Virus record (IMG/VR): IMGVR_UViG_3300027976_000123
Location: 1-32,220 of that record
DNA: 32,220 bases
DNA from: a virus
Reading direction: 5' to 3' (one strand)
In this document: positions 2,198 to 16,609 of the stretch, piece by piece
How positions within the stretch are numbered: the stretch's first letter is position 1
Layout: every line of letters starts with the position of its first letter
Program-made: the position numbers and the translations under genes
The notes under the pieces: model-generated
Database searches by the model: none
What the model was told of the DNA's origin: nothing
The model's input: only the letters and a program-made list of their open reading frames with translations

Positions 2198-2347
2198 ATG
2201 ACTACGTTAGCACAGTTCAATCAACAAAGAATACTAGAACTTGAAGTGGAGATAGAATCGAAGATTTTACAGAAAACACAACTGGAGTTTGAGGTTGCGG
2301 AAGAAGAAAAGACTTACTATAGAGATAAACAGTTACAACTCTTTTAA
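2198..2347 (+). CDS. Small coiled-coil hypothetical protein (49 aa)
   Basis: A 49-codon frame begins at an ATG preceded by AAGGA at a good distance, and ends in TAA 15 bases before the next gene. The product is highly charged and predicted helical, with repeated Leu/Ile and Glu (for example ILELEVEIESKIL), suggesting a short coiled coil. It fits exactly between the ClpP-like and MazG-like genes on the same strand, which supports it as a real gene. No function is recognised. Confidence 0.55.
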   Translation: MTTLAQFNQQRILELEVEIESKILQKTQLEFEVAEEEKTYYRDKQLQLF

Positions 2348-2362
2348 AAGGTAATTTATATT

Positions 2363-2608
2363 ATGATAAGTAACGAGAAACATGAAATTCTAACCATTCT
2401 CATGGAAGAATGTGCAGAGGCTTCAGTTGAAGCATCCAAAATAATCAGATTTGATTCTGGATTCGATAATCTCGAATCTGAGTTGGGTGATATATATTGT
2501 ATGATTGAAATACTCATCAAAAAAGGTTACATCAGTAAAGAAGCTTTAGAACTTTGCTCACAAGCAAAAAATATAAAACTTCAGAAGTGGAGTAACATCG
2601 AACTATAG
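2363..2608 (+). CDS. MazG-like nucleotide pyrophosphohydrolase-type protein
   Basis: The 81-residue all-helical protein has the metal-binding layout of the MazG/all-alpha NTP pyrophosphatase superfamily: EECAE at residues 15-19 (EExxE) and ELGD at 40-43 (ExxD), with the helix between them of the right length. MazG-type proteins hydrolyse (d)NTPs or related nucleotides to monophosphate and pyrophosphate, and are common in T4-like phages of aquatic bacteria. It is shorter than full MazG and corresponds to a single minimal domain that would act as an oligomer. AAAGG precedes the start. The gene closes the first operon; a hairpin and two promoters follow. Confidence 0.7.
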   Translation: MISNEKHEILTILMEECAEASVEASKIIRFDSGFDNLESELGDIYCMIEILIKKGYISKEALELCSQAKNIKLQKWSNIEL

Positions 2609-2632
2609 TAAATGCGAACCACTCTCATTTAC
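2608..2632 (+). other. Hairpin after MazG-like gene
   Basis: GTAAATG at 2608-2614 is the reverse complement of CATTTAC at 2626-2632. Allowing one internal mismatch the stem extends to 10 positions with a 5-base loop. No T-run follows, so it does not look like a standard intrinsic terminator. It starts at the stop codon of the MazG-like gene and could mark the end of that transcript or stabilise its 3' end. Confidence 0.35.
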
Positions 2633-2668
2633 CTCACATAATAAATCCAAATTAATGCTCGAAAGTGC

Positions 2669-2696
2669 TTGACTTTTGCCTGGAATCATGTATAAT
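2669..2696 (+). promoter_or_regulatory. Sigma-70-type promoter P1
   Basis: A -35 box TTGACT (2669-2674) and a perfect -10 box TATAAT (2691-2696) are separated by 16 bases. It lies in the 238-base gap before the gene at 2847 and points towards it. This is a host RNA polymerase promoter, so the downstream genes are probably transcribed early. Confidence 0.75.
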
Positions 2697-2751
2697 CCTT
2701 CTATAGATGTAAAATTATGCACGATTCCCGGTAAAGATAAGGCGATAATGC

Positions 2752-2780
2752 TTGACTTTCAGGCAAAATTGTGTTATACT
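2752..2780 (+). promoter_or_regulatory. Sigma-70-type promoter P2
   Basis: TTGACT (2752-2757) and TATACT (2775-2780) are separated by 17 bases. The 11 bases TGCTTGACTTT at its -35 region are repeated exactly at the -35 of the promoter 83 bases upstream, so the two appear to be a duplicated or co-regulated pair. Both read into the gene at 2847. Confidence 0.75.
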
Positions 2781-2846
2781 TACCCTTCAAAATGAGAAAT
2801 CTATATATTAAATCTCTTTTGATTTTATTAACTAGGAAATTATATT

Positions 2847-3266
2847 ATGAAAACAGCGAAACTTAAGCCTTTTCAGAAATTATTGACAATAATGATTTCA
2901 GGAAATGCAGTAACACGAGAGGAAATTGACACACTTCTCGGTAACGAAATCTATATGTATCGTATTTCAACATACATGTGGCATATTAAAACAATAGCTA
3001 ATGGCATTATTCGTATTACTAAAGATGGTCGTATAGTGACTTCTTATCAATTAGTAAATGCGGATGAAGTAAAAGACTATATGCGTAGAACTGGTATATC
3101 AACATCAAATTTTACACCAGGTGATATGGTAAAGAAACCTTCAATATCGAAACTAGATGATTTAGTTTCTGATATCAAAAAAGAGATGCTTGAGATTGCA
3201 GATGAAGTTGATGCTGAAATGGCACAATCAAAATCACATGATGCAGAAGTAAAAGCAATAGCTTAA
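2847..3266 (+). CDS. Hypothetical protein, possible winged-helix DNA-binding protein
   Basis: The 139-residue protein is first behind two sigma-70-type promoters. Its N-terminal half (residues 5-75) reads as helix - helix - helix - beta hairpin: the segment VTREEIDTLLG, then YRISTYMWHIK, then IIRITKDGRIVTSYQLVN. This is the pattern of a winged helix-turn-helix, with the third helix and a wing. The C-terminal half is charged and probably helical. By position and form it may be a transcription regulator or host takeover factor. I do not recognise a named family. It overlaps the next gene by one base (TAATG). Confidence 0.6.
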   Translation: MKTAKLKPFQKLLTIMISGNAVTREEIDTLLGNEIYMYRISTYMWHIKTIANGIIRITKDGRIVTSYQLVNADEVKDYMRRTGISTSNFTPGDMVKKPSISKLDDLVSDIKKEMLEIADEVDAEMAQSKSHDAEVKAIA

Positions 3267-9752: not shown

Positions 9753-9780
9753 ACCCGCTTCGGCGGGTTTCTTTTTGTTT
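9753..9780 (+). terminator. Rho-independent terminator after gp32
   Basis: ACCCGC (9753-9758), a UUCG tetraloop (9759-9762) and GCGGGT (9763-9768) form a very stable hairpin, followed by a T-rich tract to 9780. It ends the left + strand block where it meets the - strand tail operon. The T tract overlaps the stop codon of the SoxYZ-like gene on the other strand. Confidence 0.92.
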
Positions 9781-10534
9781 ATAGGTCTAGAGTTTTGAGG
9801 AAGATTTGACCTTTCGTATCTGAAGCTTTAATTGTCATTATTCCAGACTGTTCAGAAGAAAAGTTAAATTTGAGATATGGGTCTTGACTTATACTGATTT
9901 TATTTTCAGCAATTAATATTGTTTCACCATTAAAATCATAACGAACCTGATTAATAATCCATTCTGGTACATACCAACCATTAACTGAATCTTTTTGTAA
10001 TCCCGTAAAATTAGGATGTTTGATACGGGTTGTTAGATATTTGTTTTTAGACTTGATTAGAATTTTACCTAAATCTTTAGTCATTTCGGGGTCTTGACTA
10101 TCCATATAACCACTACAACCACCTGACGCTCTTATAGCAACACGATTCATATATAATTTACCATTACTATCTTCAGCAACAACATGAACAAAAGAATCAG
10201 TCTCCATTCTAATGCGTGTTGATAGGTCTAAGTTTTGTGTTTGATTTGTAAGGTGATATGTAGCTGCATGTTGAATAGGATTCCCATCAATGATTAGGAA
10301 TATCTTTTTAATTTCAATATTGGGCGTTTTTGTTAATTGTACATTGATTGGAACTTGAGCGCCACTAGATGCTCTTTTTGGACCATCAATCTTAAGAAAT
10401 TCTACTTCAGTAATAACCTTATCGTTAAACATTCTTTCTTTAACATAAGGCCATAAATCAGGATTAGCATCGGCTCTTGCAATCAACCCAATACTTAATA
10501 ATAATAAAAAAAGTAATATCTTTTTAATAATCAT
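9779..10534 (-). CDS. Secreted fused SoxYZ-like carrier protein
   Basis: The 251-residue protein has a signal peptide (IIKKILLFLLLLSIGLIARA, cut near residue 21). Residues about 27-140 form a SoxY-like domain: LWPYVKERMF, GPKRASSGAQVPINV, and the carrier motif RASGGCSGY with Cys140. Residues about 155-251 form a SoxZ-like domain: IKHPNFTGLQKD, GWYVPEWIIN, ISISQDPYLKFNFS and a last TIKASDTKGQIF strand. In Sox systems the SoxY cysteine carries sulfur intermediates in the periplasm and SoxZ holds the complex. Fused versions are found beside quinoprotein dehydrogenases, so the real substrate may not be thiosulfate. It is last in the - strand operon, downstream of the lysozyme gene, and is an auxiliary metabolic gene. 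Confidence 0.85.
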   Translation of the reverse strand: MIIKKILLFLLLLSIGLIARADANPDLWPYVKERMFNDKVITEVEFLKIDGPKRASSGAQVPINVQLTKTPNIEIKKIFLIIDGNPIQHAATYHLTNQTQNLDLSTRIRMETDSFVHVVAEDSNGKLYMNRVAIRASGGCSGYMDSQDPEMTKDLGKILIKSKNKYLTTRIKHPNFTGLQKDSVNGWYVPEWIINQVRYDFNGETILIAENKISISQDPYLKFNFSSEQSGIMTIKASDTKGQIFLKTLDL

Positions 10535-10539
10535 ATGTT

Positions 10540-10547
10540 TATTTATG
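10540..10547 (-). promoter_or_regulatory. T4-type late promoter motif at SoxYZ-like gene start
   Basis: On the - strand CATAAATA spans the stop codon of the lysozyme-domain gene and ends 5 bases before the SoxYZ-like start codon. If used as in T4, transcription would begin at or inside the start codon, so function here is doubtful. Confidence 0.3.
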
Positions 10548-12102
10548 ATATTCGGTTTGCGATTCTTCCTGTGTTATCTTGTTTTGATGCTACAACTATA
10601 TCATTAGAAACAGTTGTGTTATTATTTACGGTCGGTGCGTTTATAACCGTTGGATTGCCACCACTCGACATGCCTCTTTTCTCAATAGAGTTGCTATTAG
10701 AATTGGAAGCAAGTGTTGTACCTTGACTCGAACCTGCTTGTGCAACAAGATTAACTACTGTATCTGCTCTTGCGCCAACTTGACTATACCATTTACTATT
10801 TTGTAACTCATTTGCAGCTAAAGTAAAGTTGCCTTGATTTAAAGCATCTGATGTGTTTGGCCATTTTGGCCACCATTTACCCATATTAAATGCAAGGTCA
10901 ACAAATGCTCCTTTGCCTGCTTCATTTGCTTTTCCATATCCCGGTGTTTGTTCTGCTATTTTTTTGTGATGAGCAAAGTCGCTATCAAATAGATTCATCA
11001 CTTCTTCATGGGAGTATCTTCTCATTTCTGGTTTAATTTTGCCTTTTCCTTCCATTAGATGCCCAACTCCTACTGTCCAGAGTCCTTTGGTATCCTGATA
11101 AGGTTCATATCTTACACCCTCATGTTGCATTACCATCGCCTTGACATCATCCATACCACCTGAAGACGATGTTGGAGTAGGAATTGTCGAACTAGACTCT
11201 CCATCTATTGATGGTCTTTCATTGGTAACTGGCGATGGCGATTTACCTTTTTTTCGTTTAATGGGCTTTTCTCTTTTATACAATTCTTTTGGGTCTGTTA
11301 TTCCAGCAGCTATTTTTTCATTTCGAATTCTTATTGTTTCAGCACGATTATCCAGTAATCTTTTCGCACCTTCTGGATTTGGCGTAGTTTGTTTTGACAA
11401 TGGAACAAATTCTTCTTTTGGAACTTCTTTTTTTGCACTTCTCATATGAGCAGGAACATTTTCGTTATCTACTGTAATGTTATTAGTAGATTCATTGGGT
11501 GTTCCAGTTGGATTAGGAGTTTTACTTCCAAACAGAAAGTCTTTAATTGCAGAAAATTTATCTGAAAACCAATCAGTAATGCCTGAAACAAAACTAGTAA
11601 ACTTTTCAATTATCGGTGCCATAAAATCTTTAGTTTTATCATAAAGACCAGATAACATCTCTCCACCTTCGGCAAATAAATCTACAAACCATTCGCCAAG
11701 ATTAGTTAGTCCTTCTTTCATGTTTTCATACACATTAGCAAAAAAATCATTAAATTTACCTGTAATGGCCTTCCATATTGTAGTTGCAATTAAAGCAGAT
11801 ACGCCAAGAATTGCTAGGGCTTTTATAATTTTTTTTACTGTAAACATCAGGAGTAATTTTGCAAAGAACCCCTTTGCTTTTTTCTTTACAAATTTCTTTG
11901 CTAATTTATCAACAAATTCAACTTCGGGAGTAGGAGAAAGCGACTTACTACTTGTATCAATTGAAGGAGATATAGTTTTGCCGGTTTTTAGTTTTACATA
12001 TTCAACAAGGTCTTTTGCTATAAAAGAGAAACTTTCAGCAATACTTGACATTATATCTAAACTAGATTTTTCTTTAACCATTGTTGGAGAGTTAGATGTC
12101 AT
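10543..12102 (-). CDS. Tail protein with C-terminal T4-type lysozyme (GH24) domain
   Basis: Starting at the ATG at 12102, placed one base after the previous stop (TAATATG), the protein has 519 residues. Residues 1-75 are soluble. A hydrophobic helical stretch (about 78-115) and amphipathic segments (to about 195) resemble the tape-measure gene next to it. A Pro/Ser/Lys-rich linker follows. From about residue 317 to 445 there is a T4-type lysozyme domain: MQHEGVRYEPYQD and WTVGVGH with Glu328, Asp337 and Thr343, spaced exactly as T4 E11, D20, T26. The C-terminus is Asn/Thr-rich. It likely supplies the tail peptidoglycan-cleaving activity that T4 carries inside gp5. A longer start at 12129 overlaps the upstream gene. 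Confidence 0.8.
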   Translation of the reverse strand: MTSNSPTMVKEKSSLDIMSSIAESFSFIAKDLVEYVKLKTGKTISPSIDTSSKSLSPTPEVEFVDKLAKKFVKKKAKGFFAKLLLMFTVKKIIKALAILGVSALIATTIWKAITGKFNDFFANVYENMKEGLTNLGEWFVDLFAEGGEMLSGLYDKTKDFMAPIIEKFTSFVSGITDWFSDKFSAIKDFLFGSKTPNPTGTPNESTNNITVDNENVPAHMRSAKKEVPKEEFVPLSKQTTPNPEGAKRLLDNRAETIRIRNEKIAAGITDPKELYKREKPIKRKKGKSPSPVTNERPSIDGESSSTIPTPTSSSGGMDDVKAMVMQHEGVRYEPYQDTKGLWTVGVGHLMEGKGKIKPEMRRYSHEEVMNLFDSDFAHHKKIAEQTPGYGKANEAGKGAFVDLAFNMGKWWPKWPNTSDALNQGNFTLAANELQNSKWYSQVGARADTVVNLVAQAGSSQGTTLASNSNSNSIEKRGMSSGGNPTVINAPTVNNNTTVSNDIVVASKQDNTGRIANRIS

Positions 12103-12103
12103 A

Positions 12104-13891
12104 TTATGTTCTTTGTAACATATCAGCAAAATCGAAATTCATAACATCTGCTGGTGGAGTTTTATTACTTCCAGTTGAACCTGAATTATTAGTTGTTGTT
12201 GGAGAATTGATTATACTACCTCCTGACCCCATAGACTCTTGTCTTTGTCCAGAATCCACTTCAACTGAACTACTCTCGACTACAGCACCAGATGAAGCTG
12301 AACCAAATGGAGTCACAGCACTTGGTGTAACACCGCCTGCATTTATCTTATCAGCAATAGTACTTGCTGCATTATCCATTGCACCTGGAACTGCAGTAGT
12401 TCCTGAAGATAAATTTCCCATGGCAGAATCAAGTCCGCCGCCCTGTAGAAAATTACCCATGGCAGCTTTATCTTCTTCTTCAGTAGTTCCAAACTTATGA
12501 GCGGTTGGCGCAGCAGAATTGCCAAATGTTGAAGAACCATCTGCTGAATTATCCACCCCAACCATACCAATTGGTGAATTATTAGGAGTGTTACTAAATC
12601 CTCTAATCAGTTCTGCTTCAGGTGAATTATCAGGAGTGTTACTAAATCCCCTAATCAGTTCTGCTTCAGGTACTTTTTGGCCTTTCACTAAATGAGATAC
12701 ACCATCAGCAGTGTTACCAAATCCCTTTAATGCCTCAGTGTCAGGTTTAAGCTCTTCACTAGCCATAATTTCAGCTTTAAGCTTTTCATGAGCTGATGGC
12801 TCAGGGTCCGGTTTAGGAGTAGAAACTTCATCATCTGGATTGCTTGGGTCATCTTTAAATGGATAATAAGGACCAATAGTCCATGGACCACCAAAGGCTT
12901 TCGCAGCTGTGGATTCACCAAATGTTATTTTTGGAATACCAACATTATTTTTAACCCAATCCATAATGCCAGTAAATACACTTCCTATTTTTTCTATAAT
13001 TGGTTTAGTAAAATCACCAATAGACGATAACATATTCTTAAGACTATCTTCACCAAATAATCCAAATGTAATGAAGTCTAACATGGTACCTAGACCGGTT
13101 GTTATTGCTGCACTAAGGTCGCCGCTTTCTTTATATTTGTCAAACCCAGCCATTAATCCTTTAAATATTCCAATAAACAATCCAGCTATCGCAGCTGCCG
13201 GTAACATTGCGGCCAGAGTTCCAACGGCAAAAATAGTTGTAAATGCAATCACAAGAAATTTTACAATCTTGCCTAGAAATCCAAGAAGACCCCCGCCACC
13301 ATCATCATTATCTTCACCCGCCTCTGAAGTTCCTCCCTCAACTGATATTTGTGTGGGAGACCCACCTTCTAATTTAGCTTCTCTTTCGTCTTGTTGTTTA
13401 AAAAAGGAGTCACCATCTCTATCTTTGCTTTGTTCTTTGTTCTCTCTTTCAAAACTTAAAAGAGATGAAATGGCATTACGAATGGTCGACACATCATTAG
13501 CAATACCCGATATCAGTCCTTCTTCTCCAAGACTTGCAGTTGGAGAAGAAGGACTTAATTTTGATGCAGTTGGAGAATCACCAGGTTTATTAACAATTCG
13601 ACCTCTCATATAGGCCGAGAGAAAATCATCGCCAGCAAATATTTCATTATAAAACTTTTTAGCAACAGTTTTAGGATTAAGACTGCTCTTAAGACTTTGT
13701 AAGTTAGATTGGGTACCACCAACAACAGATTCTACAATACCTCCACCTTGTTCAAGTCGAGATTTCACACCACCACTAAGACTATCTTTATTCATAGTCT
13801 TTTTCATATCTTTGAAGCTAGCATAGCCAAGAGACTTAGCTAAGTTTTCATTGTATGATTTTTGAACCTCTTGTAGTTGTTTTTTATCCAT
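12104..13891 (-). CDS. Tape-measure-like tail protein
   Basis: The 595-residue protein is close to T4 gp29 (590 residues), the tape measure. It has a charged, disordered N-terminal part, then a long hydrophobic region at about 195-250 (LLGFLGKIVKFLVIAFTTIF and beyond) typical of tape measures that enter the host membrane. Amphipathic segments (TKPIIEKIGSVFTGIMDWVK) follow, then a low-complexity Pro/Ser/Asn-rich C-terminus with a 16-residue tandem repeat. Position right after the gp26/gp51 chaperone-like pair is where tape measures are found. I see no sequence match to T4 gp29, so the call is by size, composition and order. It could instead be another hub protein. Confidence 0.6.
   Translation of the reverse strand: MDKKQLQEVQKSYNENLAKSLGYASFKDMKKTMNKDSLSGGVKSRLEQGGGIVESVVGGTQSNLQSLKSSLNPKTVAKKFYNEIFAGDDFLSAYMRGRIVNKPGDSPTASKLSPSSPTASLGEEGLISGIANDVSTIRNAISSLLSFERENKEQSKDRDGDSFFKQQDEREAKLEGGSPTQISVEGGTSEAGEDNDDGGGGLLGFLGKIVKFLVIAFTTIFAVGTLAAMLPAAAIAGLFIGIFKGLMAGFDKYKESGDLSAAITTGLGTMLDFITFGLFGEDSLKNMLSSIGDFTKPIIEKIGSVFTGIMDWVKNNVGIPKITFGESTAAKAFGGPWTIGPYYPFKDDPSNPDDEVSTPKPDPEPSAHEKLKAEIMASEELKPDTEALKGFGNTADGVSHLVKGQKVPEAELIRGFSNTPDNSPEAELIRGFSNTPNNSPIGMVGVDNSADGSSTFGNSAAPTAHKFGTTEEEDKAAMGNFLQGGGLDSAMGNLSSGTTAVPGAMDNAASTIADKINAGGVTPSAVTPFGSASSGAVVESSSVEVDSGQRQESMGSGGSIINSPTTTNNSGSTGSNKTPPADVMNFDFADMLQRT
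12573..12668 (-). repeat. Two tandem 48-bp repeats in the tape-measure-like gene
   Basis: The units 12573-12620 and 12621-12668 agree at 46 of 48 bases and encode two copies of a 16-residue unit containing PEAELIRGFSNTP. A third, worn copy (EALKGFGNTADG) is encoded just upstream in the gene. The near identity points to a recent duplication that keeps the reading frame. Confidence 0.9.
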
Positions 13892-14094
13892 TACCTTTGA
13901 CTTCTTCTCTGCATTTGTTGTAGTTGTAATCTTTCTTTTTCCTCATCTAAAAACTTGATGAGCATATTAACATAGATGGTTCTTTCCCAAGGTATCATAT
14001 TTTCAAGCTCACTAAGACTATATTTGTGATGTTGCATTAACGCAAAATTCGTCTGATAGTAATTACCTAGGGTATCATAACGAAATATTAGACG
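13891..14094 (-). CDS. 51: gp51-like extension of gp26 in the -1 frame
   Basis: In the -1 frame of gene 26 an open frame runs from the slippery site to a TAA whose last bases overlap the tape-measure start (TAATG). It gives 67 residues with a conserved-looking core: HHKYSLSELENMIPWERTIY followed by VNMLIKFLDEEKERL. This resembles the gp51 family of T4-like cyanophages. An ATG at 14037 would yield a separate 48-residue protein, but it has no ribosome site. With a frameshift the product would be a gp26-gp51 fusion of 309 residues. The arrangement equals that of tail assembly chaperones (lambda G/GT) upstream of a tape measure. Confidence 0.65.
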   Translation of the reverse strand, partial: RLIFRYDTLGNYYQTNFALMQHHKYSLSELENMIPWERTIYVNMLIKFLDEEKERLQLQQMQRRSQR

Positions 14095-14819
14095 AAAAAA
14101 CTTTGGATTCCTTTGATTGCTATATCCTCTTTATATTTACATTTAGGACATTCAAAAGATACATCTTTTTTCACTTCAGGCACAGTATCAAAAAAGTCTT
14201 TAAATTTAGCTAAATCTTTTTGTTGAAGACTATCTACAAATTCTGACAACTCTTCTCTATTTGTATCTTTAGCATGGTACATTTGGTCTTTATCGTAAAT
14301 ATAATCAATACAGTCAATTAATACATTTGACATAACTTCGGATTCGCCGAGACTTTCATATTTCTCAACCATTTCAAATGTTGGATATTTTAAAACTATT
14401 CCAAGATTTTCGTTGATTTGTATTTTGTTTGTATGGTCTGGATTCTTATAAGGCTCAATCTCTAATAGATTAACATCAATCTCAACTATTCCCAAACATT
14501 TTTTATCTTCACCTTCTTCATTTTTGACAGTGTTATTACATTTATAATTTAAATGAACAACCTCTTCGACTGACCTTGCTCTTAGATGTATGAATAGCCA
14601 TTCCAAGTCGAATGTTGGTAAATTATCTATATCTAATTCGTCAATGATACAGTTTTTTAATACCTGTCTAATTACATTAATAGTTTCTTTAGGGTCATCT
14701 GATTCAGACGCCATTAAGAATAACTTTTGTTCTTTTACAAGAAACGGTCTAAATCTCACCGGTTTTCCTGTTGATATCAAATTCACCTCATAAGTAGGCA
14801 CATCTAACTTTGGTAACAT
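14088..14819 (-). CDS. 26: gp26-like baseplate hub assembly protein
   Basis: The 243-residue protein has the T4_baseplate (gp26) family pattern: LPKLDVPTYEVNL at the start, RFRPFLVKEQKLFLMA (22-37), a KNCIIDELDIDNLPTFDLEW segment and LRARSVEEV. It has four cysteines, one pair spaced as CPKC near the end (SFECPKCKYKEDI), suggesting a zinc ribbon. A GAGG ribosome site lies upstream. In T4 gp26 takes part in hub assembly with gp51, gp28 and gp29. It is encoded immediately before the gp51-like frame and the tape measure. The gene ends with a slippery heptamer three codons before its stop. Confidence 0.85.
   Translation of the reverse strand: MLPKLDVPTYEVNLISTGKPVRFRPFLVKEQKLFLMASESDDPKETINVIRQVLKNCIIDELDIDNLPTFDLEWLFIHLRARSVEEVVHLNYKCNNTVKNEEGEDKKCLGIVEIDVNLLEIEPYKNPDHTNKIQINENLGIVLKYPTFEMVEKYESLGESEVMSNVLIDCIDYIYDKDQMYHAKDTNREELSEFVDSLQQKDLAKFKDFFDTVPEVKKDVSFECPKCKYKEDIAIKGIQSFFV
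14094..14100 (-). promoter_or_regulatory. Probable -1 ribosomal frameshift site (T TTT TTC)
   Basis: In gene 26 the zero-frame codons are AGT TTT TTC GTC TAA, giving the heptamer T TTT TTC, a canonical X XXY YYZ site. After a one-base slip both tRNAs re-pair fully with TTT TTT. The new frame runs 67 codons instead of ending two codons later. No clear downstream stem was identified by eye. Confidence 0.65.
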
Positions 14820-16177: not shown

Positions 16178-16609
16178 TCAAATGCCTAAGTCTTTTTCGG
16201 TTACTAGCATAAATTGCCAACCATGTTCACGACAGAACAAATCTGCAGCTCTCCATTTTTCTTGATTGATAGCATATGTGATTGATTCAGATATGAATGT
16301 TTTAGTTTTTCTTTTTTGAGTAGGCGCTTTTGTTTGTTTTTCGGGTTTAACTTCTAACACTAAAGTCTTTTGTTTACCATTCTTTTGTAACATACGACAA
16401 ACAAAGTCCGGGAAATAACGATGAGGTTTTTGGTCCACAGGTGAGCGATATGGTACGATTAGTTCTTCACTAGACCACCATATGCATTTCTTTTCATTAT
16501 CTAAGTAGTTCATAACACGGCGTTCCCAACTAGAGCGATAAATAATGTTAGTAGGGTTACCTTTATATTTACTTGGATTTTTAGGGGTAAATTTTCCAGA
16601 ATAAGGCAT
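16178..16609 (-). CDS. 4: gp4 head completion protein
   Basis: The 143-residue protein matches T4 gp4 (150 residues) almost throughout: GKFTPKNPSKYKG, NIIYRSSWE, WWSSEELIVPYRSPVDQKPH, RYFPDFVCRM, then KTKTFISESITYAINQEKW, AADLFC and LVTEKDL. T4 gp4 finishes the DNA-filled head so that the tail can attach. The YFPDF and LVLEVKP segments resemble a nuclease-like TnsA/PD-(D/E)XK fold. It is the first gene of the - strand operon and is divergent from gp48. Confidence 0.93.
   Translation of the reverse strand: MPYSGKFTPKNPSKYKGNPTNIIYRSSWERRVMNYLDNEKKCIWWSSEELIVPYRSPVDQKPHRYFPDFVCRMLQKNGKQKTLVLEVKPEKQTKAPTQKRKTKTFISESITYAINQEKWRAADLFCREHGWQFMLVTEKDLGI

Follow-up and report, generated by a model that had tools for sequence, protein, structure and literature searches.

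The gp26 gene of this phage and a gp51-type C domain encoded in the -1 frame behind it very probably form a short/long pair of tail assembly chaperones (TACs), the long one being made by a predicted -1 frameshift at the heptamer T TTT TTC. This reading is supported because six lines of evidence bear on it together: the heptamer, the -1 frame, the lack of a usable start codon in that frame, a T4 fusion joined at the same residue, the fold of the gp26 model, which points weakly to a known TAC, and a position just upstream of a tape-measure-like gene.

The gp26 locus

The window, that is, the whole stretch of 32,220 nucleotides of viral DNA that was analysed, contains the following features at this locus:

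14088..14819, minus strand: gp26, proposed short tail assembly chaperone (TAC-N), 243 aa (phrog_150, PF12322, AF2 model)
14109..14114, minus strand: SD-like AAAGGA, a possible stimulator, ending 8 nt before the heptamer
14094..14100 (14100-14094), minus strand: slippery heptamer T TTT TTC (TTTTTTC), read in gp26 phase as T, TTT, TTC
13891..14094, minus strand: -1 frame part of the proposed frameshift product (TAC-C domain, gp51 C-terminal), 67 codons plus stop (phrog_634)
14035..14037, minus strand: first ATG in the -1 frame after the slip, an unlikely start, 19 codons past the slip, anti-SD energy 0.1
12104..13891, minus strand: tape-measure-like gene, 595 aa, starting in the TAATG overlap and named from position, length and hydrophobic segments only

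The gp26 protein matches the profile phrog_150 'baseplate hub' (1.5e-61) and Pfam PF12322 T4_baseplate (9.1e-57). Its 3' codons are ATC CAA AGT TTT TTC GTC TAA, and the stop codon TAA lies at 14090-14088, 10 nt 3' of the heptamer. The -1 frame is open from 14130 to 13891 on the minus strand. After a slip it would read CGT CTA ATA... for 67 codons and end in RSQR-TAA (TAA 13893-13891), this stop overlapping the ATG of the next gene in the sequence TAATG (13893-13889). An earlier note on this DNA had described gp26 as ending in an in-phase slippery site, with a 67-codon open -1 frame running to a TAATG overlap, and the sequence bears out both descriptions. The -1 frame matches phrog_634 'baseplate hub assembly catalyst' (2.5e-27), and it also matches the last 50 positions of phrog_150.

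Conservation of the heptamer and of the -1 frame

The heptamer by itself is unremarkable. The window has 10 copies of TTTTTTC where 18 are expected, and its 28 genes hold 17 in-frame A6/T6 slip heptamers; the gp26 heptamer is the only one of these 17 with more than 27 open -1 codons. It stands above chance because it is conserved among relatives, because its synonymous sites are fixed, and because the -1 frame diverges in a codon-like manner.

In a first sample, all 83 loci have T TTT TTC or T TTT TTT with gp51 in the -1 frame, at gp26 identities down to 31%. Because one search peptide behind this sample covered the slip site, the sampling was redone with gp26 proteins as queries. The resulting 258 gp26 loci, the majority of which were retrieved by gp26 protein queries independently of the slip site, are skewed towards relatives of the window phage and of P-SSM2. 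The heptamer lies in phase at the end of gp26, its last codon being TTC (248 loci) or TTT (6 loci), with gp51 in the -1 frame, in 254 of them. The alignment of relatives that the earlier note had recommended thus recovers both a conserved heptamer and a conserved -1 frame. This type of locus is found in Kyanoviridae, Schizotequatrovirus, Emdodecavirus, Menderavirus, Nanhuvirus and Pseudomonas phage Milchi. Of the four exceptions, two come from Ackermannviridae and one from Vibrio phage K355, and in the fourth the gp26 frame is broken.

The synonymous sites were examined in 59 representatives of less than 70% identity. All of them have T as the last base of the codon before the Phe pair and TTT as the first Phe codon. 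Since gp26 genes use these two T choices at frequencies of about 0.60 and 0.63, the joint probability is about 1e-27, assuming that the representatives are independent. Divergence in the -1 frame is 0.16, 0.05 and 0.34 at codon positions 1, 2 and 3, respectively, and 58 of the 59 representatives have no stop in this frame, while the remaining two frames average about five stops. A six-frame search yielded 571 phage records that match the -1 frame, mostly from the first residue past the slip. On this pattern the -1 frame behind the gp26 heptamer is judged to be coding and to be under strong purifying selection.

At the gp26 end of the Ackermannviridae loci (L091, L097, L273-L287) and of Vibrio phage K355, an open -1 frame with a C-domain-like block (LLSYFVMCDEL...SMPWHLD) is present and there is no X XXY YYZ heptamer. 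The Ackermannviridae loci have GAR ATT TTC ATT TAA TTTTTG in common, and a non-standard slip site possibly operates in both groups. S-SCSM1 (around position 2469) has an intact heptamer, but only two codons of its -1 frame stay open and the C domain is found in +1, reflecting either a one-base sequencing indel or a true loss.

Comparison with T4 gp26 and gp51

In T4, gp26 and gp51 both belong to phrog_150, but gp51 spans positions 13-280 of the 282-position profile and gp26 only positions 14-235, so that T4 gp51 comprises a gp26-like N domain and a C domain within one gene. The C-terminus of T4 gp51 aligns with the -1 frame of the window (E 5e-07). Because T4 gp51 FKLLVNPDEIFTFYQ aligns with FRLIFRYDTLGNYYQ of the window (FKLL...YQ in T4 against FRLI...YQ at the junction), the in-frame join of T4 falls at the slip point. 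The window gp26 is homologous to T4 gp26 and the proposed frameshift product is homologous to T4 gp51 from end to end; T4, in contrast, has two separate genes on opposite strands and no slip site. The earlier note had proposed that gp26 and gp51 themselves form the frameshift pair. Its mechanism has good support as a prediction, and what it anticipated in the sequence was found. However, the -1 frame corresponds to the C domain of gp51 only, and the T4 counterpart of the whole proposed fusion is gp51.

T4 itself shows no frameshift here and carries two genes. In T4 and its near relatives the Phe-Phe pair of gp26 is kept, mostly as GAG TTC TTT, and the heptamer occurs in none of the T4-type genes examined. 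Gene arrangements were compared in 19 complete phages. Three of them (T4, Aeromonas phage 25 and Erwinia phage Cronus) have two genes, one of which is unbroken to profile position ~280. A single long phrog_150 locus is present in the remaining 16. In most it stops near profile position 234, and in eight of the 16 the C-terminal part (~227-278) appears beside it as a second short match in an adjacent frame. The window likewise has a single locus and no second unbroken gene with both domains within its 32 kb.

In a tree of the N domain, T4-type gp26 and gp51 are separate from the frameshift group, on branches too long to settle polarity. Tentatively, and with somewhat less than even confidence, we suggest that frameshifting by a heptamer with an SD-type stimulator may be ancestral in the T4-like supergroup (Kyanoviridae, Schizotequatrovirus, Emdodecavirus, Menderavirus, Nanhuvirus), that the T4 26/51 pair may be a later duplication that exchanged recoding for two genes, and that Ackermannviridae may have moved to a different, non-standard slip site.

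Signals around the slip site

An SD-like GARGG motif ends about 8 nt upstream of the heptamer in the representatives. The predicted anti-SD duplex averages -6.1 kcal/mol over the 59 representatives against -4.9 kcal/mol for synonymous-codon shuffles (mean z -0.89), and in the window it is -5.6 against -4.3 kcal/mol; conservation of Glu/Lys-Gly in the protein accounts for part of this signal. The stimulator of dnaX is a parallel for such an upstream SD-like element.

RNAalifold gave no consensus downstream structure for the 59 representatives or for 97 close relatives that was better than in column-shuffled alignments. Windows of 50 nt placed 20-40 nt downstream fold somewhat better than shuffles, with single-sequence z down to -1.2 at ~30 nt. 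This dip may come from the conserved TTTGC..TAATGCA codons and the RNAalifold result was null, so a downstream stem-loop is not claimed. An Rfam search at the slip site returned no family, and a tRNA search of the window returned no tRNA.

Alternatives to the proposed ribosomal frameshift

The C domain could be a small gene of its own whose translation begins at an internal ATG, perhaps by coupling to gp26 termination, and the heptamer would then be incidental. It is annotated as its own gene, gp51, in many cyanophage records, and in about one quarter of the representatives a start codon lies no more than a few codons past the slip. However, the first -1 ATG lies at a median of 19 codons past the slip in the 59 representatives, and its mean anti-SD energy is 0.03, as compared with -0.74 for random ATGs and -2.5 for the start of the next gene. 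In the window this ATG sits inside the conserved NFALMQHHKYSL block, 19 codons into the domain, with an anti-SD energy near zero, as the earlier note had recognized in stating that the internal ATG has no ribosome site. A start placed in the conserved core and lacking a ribosome site speaks against a separate gp51, and such a start would also lose the stretch between the slip and the ATG, where conservation begins at the first residue. Furthermore, the T positions of the heptamer are fixed at synonymous sites, and both parts are fused in T4. A separate gp51 is thus very unlikely, and what cyanophage records list as a small 'gp51' gene is probably one half of the fusion with a wrongly assigned start. 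The annotation of S-WAM1 (2309-3198) begins gp26 about 37 codons too late and omits the C domain altogether.

It is just as improbable that RNA polymerase, rather than the ribosome, changes the frame by slipping on the T6 run. A one-base insertion in the transcript would yield the same frame, and seven T residues stand at the site in 6 of the 258 loci. However, the run is nearly always six T followed by C, which is short for polymerase slippage, its phase fits tandem tRNA slippage exactly, and the upstream SD-like signal would have no role. Finally, the locus might be a decayed fusion: production of its C domain would have ceased, and a second gene of the T4 kind at another place in the genome would do the job. 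The window is a 32 kb fragment, which leaves room for a second copy elsewhere in the genome, but the strong purifying selection on the -1 frame and the single long phrog_150 gene in complete relatives make decay extremely unlikely.

Proposed mechanism of the chaperone pair

In the frameshift model, gp26 would be the short chaperone, TAC-N. A fraction of ribosomes, with tRNA-Phe in the P and A sites on T TTT TTC, would slip back by one base, bypass the TAA and produce the long form TAC-NC, consisting of gp26 and the 67-residue gp51-type C domain with the junction ...QSFF-RLIF.... Slippage may be made more frequent by the AAAGGA that lies about 8 nt upstream. The sequences themselves show the heptamer and how well it is kept, a coding -1 frame with no usable start, and the fused homologue in T4; the slip and its rate are inferred. 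By analogy with lambda G/GT and from T4 genetics, the short form would coat the tape measure during assembly of the hub and tail tube, the C domain of the long form would recruit a tube or tape partner, and both forms would depart before the virion is completed.

The AlphaFold (AF2) model of gp26 has a pLDDT of 88.8. In a fold search with this model, the HK97 TAC 2ob9 is the only solved structure above 0.5 probability among the matches listed (0.85, with a weak E of 0.78); 3fgx and 3klu are also listed with weak E-values. All three are called TACs (PMC9603447). The modelled fold thus points weakly to a known tail assembly chaperone. A PDB sequence search with gp26 profiles gave nothing relevant, and the 79-residue C domain had no significant match in a fold search.

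Relation to known systems

Production of a chaperone pair by -1 frameshifting is long established in other tailed phages, and known TACs such as lambda G/GT consist of an abundant short form and a rare fused form. As in lambda G/GT and P2 E/E', the -1 slip, here a predicted one, falls close to the 3' end of the short gene, and the tape measure (here a tape-measure-like gene) comes next. The slip sequence is different, however, and the likeness is one of logic, the fold link to the HK97 TAC being only suggestive. The TAC locus of Vandenendeviridae/Andersonviridae (phage Adele) is also similar, with a conserved poly-T -1 site ending TAC-N and an unbroken -1 frame ahead of the tape measure, but its motif is GTTTTT and the phage families are different (PMC12846349).

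The earlier note supposed that nothing of this kind had been described for T4-like phages, which is wrong. According to its title and to papers citing it, Vladimirov, Gautam and Davidson (2022, Virology 566:9-15) treat the TAC genes of T4-like phages, and the citing papers credit it with poly-T slip sites in some T4-like TAC-N genes and with short and fused gene pairs in others (PMC10885494, PMC12846349). The subject is therefore the same as here, whereas the lineage of the window is uncultured. The present analysis computed the SD-like element, the test on synonymous sites and the lack of a heptamer in T4-type gp26, and that paper, as known from its title and citations, may contain them too. 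A frameshifted chaperone is not new in kind and was largely expected; the window adds a new member and some sequence evidence. The slip would account for the annotations of many marine T4-like phages, in which gp51 either is overlooked or appears as a tiny, poorly started gene. It would also give T4 gp26 and gp51 a concrete role as a chaperone pair, and it allows phages that obtain the pair by recoding to be compared cleanly with those that use two genes.

Neighbouring genes

Upstream of gp26 lies a tube-like gene (phrog_45, 2.4e-40). The downstream gene is tape-measure-like by length and place only: searches of its 595-aa product against PHROG and Pfam gave no noteworthy match, and its comparison with T4 gp29 gave none that was significant. 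Directly after it, a gene at 10543-12129 on the minus strand encodes a lysozyme-domain protein (PF00959, 8.2e-15) with weak tape-measure matches. At 9779-10534 on the minus strand, adjoining the tail genes, a SoxY-SoxZ fusion-like protein is encoded (PF13501, 4.5e-28; PF08770, 1.6e-21), and this is likely a sulfur-oxidation auxiliary metabolic gene. A head-closure (gp4-like) homologue at 16178-16609 on the minus strand scores as a TnsA-like endonuclease (PF08722, 1.6e-19).
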